NCBI GenBank assembly: GCA_016209255.1
Contig: JACQWL010000048.1
Span: 1 to 47,275 of the forward strand
Length of the DNA: 47,275 nt
Source: Verrucomicrobiota bacterium
GTDB lineage: Bacteria; Verrucomicrobiota; Verrucomicrobiia; Opitutales; Opitutaceae
Reading direction: 5' to 3'
Position numbers and translations under genes: made by a program. This document shows positions 1,571-2,818 of this stretch, piece by piece (positions within the stretch are counted from its first letter, which is position 1; the number at the start of each line of letters is the position of its first letter). Under the pieces are notes generated by a model, which was not told where the DNA came from, searched no databases, and saw nothing but the letters and a program-made list of their open reading frames with translations.

Positions 1571-1942
1571 TCACCGCTTCGAACCGCTGCCGCCCAAGGT
1601 GACGCGCATCTCGCTGTGGCGGGTTCCGCCAGCGGCCGGCTCTGCTTTTACCCCCGGGCTTTTCCAGAGATCGGGACGCTCGCGACCGGCTTTGACGGTG
1701 TAGGATCCCTCGGCGAAAACTGGCGGGCGAAAGCGGTCGCCGCGGATGCGACGCGTGTAGGGCGCGAACCCGACCACCTGGTCGCGTGGGACCCGCACAA
1801 ACTCGGCGGGGAACCCCGTGGCCGGCTTGTCCCAGACATCGTCGCGCGATGCCAGCTCCAAGGTTGCACGCCGCGGACCCGGGAACGGCGACCCGGCGGC
1901 CGCCGACACAACCAGCGAGACGGTGAACAGCAGATGTTTCAT
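1571..1942 (-). CDS. Small secreted protein of unknown function, possibly a shortened remnant
   Basis: This 123-residue product starts MKHLLFTVSLVVSAAAGS, a clear signal peptide. The start has a strong Shine-Dalgarno (GGGGAG a few bases upstream), so it was a real gene start. The segment AEFVRVPRDQVVGFAPYT recalls the N-terminal strand region of secreted metallophosphoesterase or PhoD-like proteins. That resemblance is from memory and weak. The tail (RFRPPVFAEGSYTVKAGRERPD) looks like a different beta-rich domain. The protein is far shorter than such enzymes, and neighbouring genes show internal deletions, so it may join two ends of a larger gene. Its ATG overlaps the stop of the upstream fragment (ATGA). 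Confidence 0.4.
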   Translation of the reverse strand: MKHLLFTVSLVVSAAAGSPFPGPRRATLELASRDDVWDKPATGFPAEFVRVPRDQVVGFAPYTRRIRGDRFRPPVFAEGSYTVKAGRERPDLWKSPGVKAEPAAGGTRHSEMRVTLGGSGSKR

Positions 1943-2151
1943 GATCTCCCCTCATCAATCGCCTCTTGCCGCGCCTCGGTGCCGGGCCTCGTGCCATCGC
2001 CGACCGCGCCATGGGCGATGACGTTGAAGTCACCCGTCGGCGGCATGCGGAGAATTCCGTCCGCGGCGAGAGTGGCCAGAATCACCATCCTCATGCCCGG
2101 TTCGTACCGCATCTCGCGGCGGAACGCGAGCGGCTTGACGCGGAGGGACAA
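1939..2151 (-). pseudogene. N-terminal fragment resembling a GH28/pectate-lyase-superfamily protein
   Basis: A 70-codon frame contains FNVIAHGAVGDGTRPGTEA followed by RQEAID. This matches the typical opening of secreted right-handed beta-helix polygalacturonases and pectate-lyase-superfamily proteins (consensus FxVxxFGAxGDGxxxDTxAxQxAID). Everything after the first turn is missing and the frame stops at TGA 1939-1941. A weak hydrophobic leader (MVILATLAADGIL) precedes it. An intact member would be 400 residues or more, so this is a remnant. It is assigned by motif only. Confidence 0.45.
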
Positions 2152-2286: not shown

Positions 2287-2419
2287 AGTGTCACGTAATA
2301 GGTGACACTTTCGCTTCTTTCCTCCGATGAGCATCATGAAGAGTGTCACTTAATACGTGACACTTTTCAGGCACCTAACAGGGAAATACCGCAAAGAGTG
2401 TCACGTATTAAGTGACACT
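2287..2419. repeat. Three GTGTCAC-N7-GTGACAC palindromes at exact 55-bp spacing
   Basis: Three near-identical palindromes occupy 2288-2308, 2343-2363 and 2398-2418. Each has perfect 7-bp arms GTGTCAC and GTGACAC around a 7-bp AT-rich centre (GTAATAG, TTAATAC, GTATTAA). The start-to-start distance is 55 bp both times. The second and third are reverse complements of each other over about 27 bp (GAAGAGTGTCACTTAATACG and onward), so 2338-2423 forms one large inverted repeat with about 32 bp between arms. The intervening sequences are not repeated. This could be an operator array, a REP/BIME-like element or the recognition site of an absent transposase. The third copy overlaps the 3' end of the S58 remnant. 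Confidence 0.85.
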
Positions 2420-2818
2420 CTTCGCGGTTCGATGGGAGGCGCGCCGGATGGGGCGGCGGGCGAACAGTCGTCCGCGTCGCCTCGTCCCAACGCAATCCTC
2501 AGGGGCCCACGCGAGACGGGCACTGGAGGACCGAGCTCCGCGGAGGCCGACGTTCCACCGCCAACGAACTGGCCGCGACGGCGCTCGGCCCTCCTCGACC
2601 GTGTGTCCGCGTCCGGTAACCGTGACGGCCTGAAACAGCGAATTGTAGGCGGCCTCCTCCGTCGCTTCGAGCGCGGCCTCGAACAGCGGCGAAAGAGCCT
2701 CGGTCGGGAGCAGGGCACGCGGTCGCTGCCCGCCAGCGGCCGCGCCGCAAGCAAGCAAGGCGAGGATCACGGCTGCGGCGGCGAGAACCAAGCGCATGAC
2801 GTGCGGTGATGCTTTCAT
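2408..2818 (-). pseudogene. Remnant of a secreted S58 (DmpA-type) aminopeptidase
   Basis: The frame begins with a signal peptide (MRLVLAAAAVILALLACGAA) and passes after about 15 residues into LFEAALEATEEAAYNSLFQA then VTVTGRGHTVE. That segment is typical of the extreme C-terminus of S58 self-processing aminopeptidases, which run to about 350-400 residues. Nothing of the catalytic core, including the autoprocessing Ser, is present. Leader and tail therefore appear joined by an internal deletion near 2715-2755. After GHTVE the frame degenerates and runs into the palindromic repeat, where it stops. The start could be 2818 or 2797. The product should be inactive. Confidence 0.6.

Follow-up and report, generated by a model that had tools for sequence, protein, structure and literature searches.

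Dispersed palindrome arrays in Opitutaceae genomes and a small helix-turn-helix protein family as their predicted partner

The window, a stretch of 47,275 nucleotides from an Opitutaceae genome, carries three palindromes with identical arms that are probably operator sites for a dedicated small XRE/Cro-like helix-turn-helix (HTH) protein. We assign this reading, which derives from sequence comparisons, a probability of roughly 0.74. An HTH dimer would bind each 21-bp dyad, neighboring dyads 54–55 bp apart would be bound together, and arrays would form a larger complex. Autoregulation of the HTH gene is proposed because palindromes bracket it, and the dispersed sites may act much like transcription roadblocks, as excerpts describe for mycobacteriophage stoperators (PMC6550527), or may be architectural; they would be maintained only in the presence of the HTH protein. 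A broader and more tentative proposal, with the odds somewhat against it, is that Opitutaceae chromosomes host several mutually orthogonal systems, each comprising a solo HTH gene between its own palindromes and anything from a few to 73 dispersed copies, some of them in frame in conserved genes. Positions would be inherited across species, the site sequence would switch with the recognition helix, and the sites would be a replicating or actively maintained partner without a transposase of its own.

The three-palindrome array and its dispersed relatives

Palindromes of the form GTGTCACN7GTGACAC are denoted type A. The array and the ORF adjoining it comprise the following features.

2288 to 2308, unstranded: type-A palindrome copy 1, GTGTCAC-GTAATAG-GTGACAC (dyad scan; genome with 73 exact copies of the pattern)
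2309 to 2342, unstranded: spacer 1, 34 bp (sequence)
2343 to 2363, unstranded: type-A palindrome copy 2, GTGTCAC-TTAATAC-GTGACAC (dyad scan; inverse of copy 3)
2364 to 2397, unstranded: spacer 2, 34 bp (sequence)
2398 to 2418, unstranded: type-A palindrome copy 3, GTGTCAC-GTATTAA-GTGACAC (dyad scan)
2408 to 2818, minus strand: Peptidase_S58-like ORF with its stop codon within palindrome 3 (Pfam PF03576 match)

A sequence-only reading of this DNA had described three dyads with identical arms and two equal 55-bp steps, and both were recovered exactly (2288–2308, 2343–2363 and 2398–2418; steps of 55 and 55 bp). When up to two mismatches were allowed, three dyads were observed in the window against 0.09 expected from shuffled sequences, none of which reached three. 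A wider dyad pattern revealed nothing in the window beyond these three dyads, the window holds no site of type B (defined below) at two or fewer mismatches, and it has no Rfam match at the gathering score. Copies 2 and 3 are mutually inverted, as had been noticed, with 30-nt arms that are 97% complementary, and the larger hairpin suggested for them agrees with the folding of the strand 2270–2440 as RNA at -81.4 kcal/mol (z -10.4). The description of the 7-bp centers as unrelated did not hold, given that the copies listed mostly read NTAWTAN or nearly so.

The ORF at 2408–2818 aligns to profile positions 265–306 of the 307 in PF03576 (E 7.8e-7) and looks decayed, since only the last ~42 Peptidase_S58 positions are matched. 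A second short ORF near the array (1939–2151, minus strand) is a gene remnant without a Pfam match at 0.01, and we take it to read like the start of a pectinase-type protein. As far as tested, no regulator adjoins the array, in keeping with the earlier description: tblastn with the HTH protein introduced below returned no match on the window's contig (C291) and two matches elsewhere in the genome, on contigs C82 and C395.

The palindrome proved to be a dispersed repeat. The window's genome (G000), a metagenome-assembled genome (MAG) of 6.78 Mb in 647 contigs that is 85% complete, holds 73 exact copies, and a reversed-pattern control gave 0. Among the 57 genomes searched (G000 and 56 relatives), the motif was detected in nine, with 73 copies in G000, 41 in G022, 32 in G025, 31 in G003, 6 in G030, 5 in G011, 2 in G023, and 1 each in G024 and G029. 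The motif is thus neither unique to the window nor unconserved. One exact 21-mer searched against named genome contigs matched at least 110 stretches, and all 110 listed titles were Opitutaceae, Opitutae, Opitutia, Opitutus, Cephaloticoccus or Verrucomicrobia MAGs.

Type-A palindromes are grouped in arrays of one to four. The exact 55-bp period does not extend to the family as a whole, because only 71 of 116 distinct neighboring pairs 30–200 bp apart have steps of 53–57 bp and a further 24 have steps of 45–48 bp; several arrays in G022 are symmetric, at about 46-55-46. Same-face helical phasing is not supported, as the 46- and 55-bp steps differ by no whole number of turns. Judged by the central base, pairs at 53–57 bp comprised 47 inverted and 26 direct, and those at 45–48 bp comprised 10 inverted and 16 direct. 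Type-A spacers differ in sequence, yet a CAGAGGGA-like mid-spacer motif learned on 13 G022 spacers was enriched in G000 (30 spacers, z 5.8), G003 (12, z 4.8) and other genomes (20, z 7.7), where it lay within 3 bp of the spacer center in 77, 58 and 70% of cases, respectively. In type-B spacers the corresponding values were z 2.0 in G018 (n = 10) and z 1.0 in others (n = 5), which is only suggestive of a motif common to both types. Within the window, the center of spacer 2 (ACAGGGA, about 2378–2384) matches this motif by eye, and the center of spacer 1 (TCCTCCGA, about 2320–2327) is a weak by-eye match to its minus-strand form.

A MITE-like repeat of ~125 bp was also observed in Opitutus-like MAGs, with ends TA-GTATTACTCTGTTA and TAACAGAGTAATAC-TA and a type-A palindrome at its center (loci L123, L124, L127, L132, L149, L157, L161, L164, L166, L173, L188, L194 and L290). 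It would represent a predicted HTH site within a mobile element.

A small HTH gene family and its presumed cognate palindromes

When the 733 ORFs near arrays were clustered, a small HTH protein ranked seventh by locus number, and it was chosen as the candidate because its gene stands between palindromes. This arrangement was found in four genomes, at L078 (in G003), L169, L190 and L221; L225 is the same place as L078 and was counted together with it. The gene is solo and its product has ~100–130 aa. A tblastn search of the 57 genomes gave 24 matches in 13 genomes, five of them in G003. Relatives of the gene are bracketed by other palindromes, namely TTGTCATN7ATGACAA (type B), TGTAACG/C (types C/E) and TTTCACG (type D), and further palindrome types beyond A–E bracket others.

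In a first set of 27 HTH genes, one fixed scan placed a dyad within about 420 bp of 24, and 16 of these have matching sites on either side; the background was 36 dyads in 305,181 bp. Adding two slightly different bracket forms raised the count to 26 of 27, leaving L320 with none. An alignment query was later run against 387 genomes of the phylum, with no more than 11 candidates scored in each; 23 genomes had a match, 18 of them in family f1, and G203 had eight matches. Brackets were present at 15 of the 20 later HTH genes, on both sides in 10 (background, 26 dyads in 305,181 bp). No dyad was detected at L320 or at the remaining five later loci. In bracketed members a stretch of the protein reads PDAERT or a close variant, but in L320, L332, L337, L342 and L356 it is LDAERT, and these five may therefore use another site shape. 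L345 is an HTH relative likewise without a dyad of the scanned form. The later set excludes L330, which is the same place as L221, four loci that duplicate places already counted (L329, L331, L344 and L352), and L347–L351, whose matches are weak (E 4e-8 or worse) and lie outside the family.

We compared eight recognition-helix residues, spanning the turn and the start of the helix predicted at 75–83, with half-sites assigned by hand from the bracket scans. Helix distance and half-site distance were correlated in the first set (Mantel r 0.71, 24 genes, 0 of 20,000 permutations; L320, L324 and L326 left out), and the correlation persisted in this set when the rest of the protein was controlled for (partial Mantel r 0.69, 0 of 5,000). 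The later set gave r 0.89 (15 genes, 0 of 20,000), and r 0.70 after removal of its two Pro members (13 genes, 0 of 20,000). At the third helix residue, R or K accompanied G and P accompanied T in all 15 later genes, the two Pro cases not being mutually independent because their genomes belong to a single genus and share DNA. A residue-7 rule derived from the first set was dropped after it held in just three of seven later genes. With L330 included, brackets numbered 16 of 21, r was 0.88, the third-residue rule held in 16 of 16 and residue 7 in four of eight. The existence of this cognate family supports the suggestion in the sequence-only reading that the palindromes are under selection for protein binding, the binding being predicted.

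The HTH fold itself is weakly supported. The AlphaFold model, built from four sequences, has a mean pLDDT of 67 and helices at 45–58, 64–71, 75–83 and 91–105, and its Foldseek matches, mostly HTH chains of the Cro, P22 C2 and HipB-like kinds, all fell short of E ≤ 0.001. Pfam matches were to YdaS_toxin and HTH_3, all below the cut-off, and the best E in a PDB sequence search was 0.095. Of two HTH proteins compared with NCBIfam, one had no match and the other matched TIGR02607 (antidote_HigA) at E 0.11, far below the cut-off; PADLOC gave no match for five proteins, and PHROGs gave weak matches only (E 0.017 or worse). HTH relatives were absent from 50,697 phage and 72,556 plasmid records (tblastn, E ≤ 0.001, one type-A HTH query), and none was confirmed in viral contigs with the alignment query. 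Among ORFs within about 1.5 kb of the HTH gene, less at contig ends, no gene that might encode a partner enzyme was common to all types. An aminotransferase-like gene adjoins the HTH gene at six loci, mostly of type E, which looks like vertical inheritance.

The distribution of sites among genomes was then compared with that of the proteins. With HTH types assigned by helix and bracket, site thresholds set after the counts were seen, and p-values that ignore shared ancestry, any HTH gene was present in 13 of 17 genomes with any site type vs. 0 of 40 others (p 1e-9, 57 genomes). Genomes with five or more type-B sites were G000 (27), G003 (18), G004 (39), G005 (13), G011 (49), G018 (31), G025 (19) and G034 (20). 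A type-B helix was encoded in seven of these eight (not in G025) compared to none of the 49 others (p 3e-8, again ignoring shared ancestry), two of which have one type-B site each. Type-D sites were found in G029 (42) and G003 (13), both with the HTH gene, and singly in G025 and in G024, where the HTH gene is a pseudogene (a broken copy). Sites of types C/E were found in G003 (45), G005 (33), G023 (8), G029 (4) and G035 (4), and five genomes have 1–3; C/E HTH genes occurred in four of the five genomes with at least four sites vs. three of 52 others. In the latter three, the C/E-like genes are G000:C395, G004:C102 and G024:C73, and the genomes have 0, 0 and 2 C/E-pattern sites, respectively. 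Type-A HTH genes were present in three of six genomes with at least five type-A sites vs. 0 of 51.

In these sequence-based counts, a site population (2 to 49 copies) and the matching HTH type occur together in most cases, with exceptions. No type-A HTH gene was found in G000, which has the most type-A sites (73) and is 85% complete. Orphan populations also occur in G025 (19 type-B sites without a type-B HTH gene) and in G011 and G030 (5 and 6 type-A sites without a type-A HTH gene), and G004:C90 combines a type-B helix with TTGTCGTC brackets.

In-frame copies and alternative explanations

Of 61 array clusters in G000, G003 and G022, 14 overlap a predicted ORF and seven lie in frame within proteins aligned to homologs. 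The names of the array-bearing proteins are our presumptive assignments, made in part by eye.

G000 and G003: in-frame array in a polyprenyl glycosylphosphotransferase
G003: in-frame array in RlmN
G000: in-frame arrays in a helicase, an epimerase and a DmsC-like protein
G003: in-frame array in a DmsC-like protein, in a frame other than the predicted ORF

The dyads are translated as CHV(I/L)(R/S)DT or VTYYVT, and the RlmN insert sits in a length-variable loop (19 aligned genes). The RlmN gene of G017 (L231) has a different insert (CHGEERSDEAIQLDRHGALRAPRDD...) in the same loop, perhaps another translated repeat. In shared glycosyltransferase and RlmN arrays, arms were identical at 28 of 28 positions in four comparisons and at 27 of 28 in the two with L128. 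Third codon positions in the arms were identical at 10 of 10 in all six comparisons, with identities of 0.53–0.62 at flanking third positions. The loci of G000, G003 and L128 and the methyltransferase loci were ascertained by palindrome, whereas the two G025 genes, having been found by protein search, were not chosen for it. Sites in conserved genes may also have re-inserted independently at the same place.

Site type differs between genomes at several orthologous places. The epimerase has a type-A site in G000, L206 and L227 and a type-B site in the same codon region in G018. In the DmsC-like protein, the site shared by G000 and G003 is of type A, and the one in the same loop of G029 is of type D. 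Exceptions in the DmsC-like gene are a second G029 site upstream and a type-A site in another loop in L148. In five MAGs (loci picked by exact 21-mer), a single type-A dyad occupies matching codons of a methyltransferase, and in G018 a type-B pair lies at and beside that place. For L119 (type A) and L372 (type D), the evidence of a switch is limited to flanking sequences that are similar left and right of the site.

These observations bear on several alternatives to operator sites for an HTH protein. The palindromes might be short insertions spread by some enzyme and preserved through protection or copying by the HTH protein, with shared genes reflecting the few loops that tolerate inserts. 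Their patchy presence (nine of 57 genomes), the several orthogonal types per genome (as judged by the HTH matches in G003 and G203), positions in loops of variable length (RlmN, for example), the single type-D site where the HTH gene is a pseudogene (G024) and the L148 site in another DmsC loop are all consistent with such a selfish population of sites. We nonetheless regard it as the less likely reading, given that neither an enzyme nor an empty site with exact boundaries was found and that a single type-A palindrome occupies the same methyltransferase codons in five MAGs, albeit at loci ascertained by 21-mer. Movement by a RAYT (Y1) transposase as a REP/REPIN family, with the HTH link incidental, is improbable. 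The palindromes are dispersed, 47 of 73 pairs at 53–57 bp are inverted by the central base, G000 has 16 Y1_Tnp matches, and excerpts of a published study describe in-frame intragenic REPs in O. terrae (PMC3733652). However, the gene that the palindromes bracket is an HTH gene, neither a GTAG nor a CGTC tag was present at the stem ends of the dyad sequences, and the earlier proposal that RAYT genes would be flanked by the same arms was not supported: the exact palindrome (GTGTCACGTAWTACGTGACAC) was absent from the flanks (up to 1,500 bp, shorter at contig ends) of all 46 Y1_Tnp loci examined, comprising all 16 matches in G000 and 30 of 58 in five relatives. The 16 G000 loci had no match at two or fewer mismatches, and the 30 others had two loose matches that look like chance, one at L097 (two mismatches) and one at L117 (one mismatch and a 5-bp center, where the transposase match begins or ends).

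An action of the hairpins in RNA, as terminators or processing sites, would account for perfect stems and strong folding. Base pairs immediately flanking the dyad core covary clearly in G029, at offsets 1 and 3, partly in G003, at offsets 1 and 2, and weakly at one offset in G000, although copies within subfamilies could be the cause. Against this, nothing clear was seen beyond the core in G022 or G018, positions 8/14 of the center frequently do not pair (GTATTAA, CTATTAA), several arrays lie within genes and are translated, and the window lacks an Rfam match. We hold this explanation to be very improbable. We give equally little credence to the array as a MITE remnant, in which the palindrome would be the central part of MITEs that we presume to be IS630-like. 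The palindrome does lie centrally in the ~125-bp element with TA-GTATTACTCTGTTA ends in several Opitutus-like MAGs, but such ends were not seen by eye around the window array, and the arrays with similar flanks in G000, G003 and G022 were few, being orthologous loci apart from two short matches inside G022.

A RAYT-like gene in G000 (locus L017) has repeats of its own, GGGGTCACGTCC on one side (1223) and GACGTGACCCC twice on the other (2294 and 2320), and these are unlike the type-A palindrome.

Relation to known dispersed-site systems

The papers cited in this section are drawn on in excerpt. A study of GTAG REPs reported many REPs in O. terrae, in-frame intragenic ones included (PMC3733652), and neither TTTCACG nor the term 'helix-turn-helix' appears in its text as excerpted. 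Like REP/REPIN-RAYT systems (PMC3733652, PMC8049555), the palindromes described here are short, dispersed, often paired, present in tens of copies, sometimes in frame, and associated with a dedicated protein. Unlike in REP/RAYT systems, the dedicated gene encodes a small HTH protein rather than a Y1 transposase, and the site sequence follows the HTH helix.

In Cluster A mycobacteriophages, one repressor, for which autoregulation has been proposed, serves 20–30 dispersed stoperators, and stoperator motif and repressor diverge together such that repressors prefer cognate sites (PMC6550527, PMC9283540). The Opitutaceae sites resemble stoperators in being dispersed and in having a motif that diverges with the cognate protein. 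They differ in that stoperators, as described in those excerpts, are asymmetric, co-oriented with transcription and located in phage genomes, whereas the sites here are dyads on bacterial contigs that form arrays, lie in some cases in frame in genes, and belong to several systems per genome. In XRE-family autoregulation, a dimeric HTH regulator has palindromic operators close to the gene that encodes it (PMC12565409), an arrangement that the HTH gene described here would share; the many dispersed sites, the in-gene copies and the type switching at orthologous places set it apart from those regulators as excerpted. Rickettsia palindromic elements (PMC3733652) are likewise palindromic DNA translated in frame in conserved proteins, but they have another sequence and host group, and a cognate DNA-binding protein is not among their features in the excerpted description.

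MatP-matS, Noc and SlmA are systems in which a sequence-specific protein has dispersed chromosomal sites, and the Opitutaceae palindromes, with their presumed specific protein, are similar in this respect. For MatP, 23 matS sites are given in excerpts (PMC3330122, PMC4726725). Up to eight paralogs per genome, patchy presence within one genus, arrays, and a site-bracketed gene distinguish the Opitutaceae palindromes from MatP, Noc and SlmA. No report of an Opitutaceae HTH protein with dispersed cognate palindromes was found among the literature matches listed, in a search whose scope mostly excluded subscription journals. We set the putative protein-and-site system apart as new because the defining features of REP/RAYT and of stoperators that were tested were absent from it; a stricter placement could be among dispersed-site HTH systems.

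A dispersed palindrome family, even one with copies in frame in genes, is not necessarily a REP family mobilized by a transposase. With some 45 HTH genes (27 + 20), most of which have adjoining sites, a protein-DNA recognition code becomes directly testable, for example through the Arg/Pro to G/T switch, and G203, with its eight HTH matches, is suited to asking how many orthogonal systems coexist. In the single-contig genome G029, none of the type-D sites listed falls within a 1.7-Mb interval (C1 2976572–4663639). The findings also raise the question of how tens of 21-bp sites, among them sites within conserved genes, arise, persist over deep divergence, and change type with one small protein.
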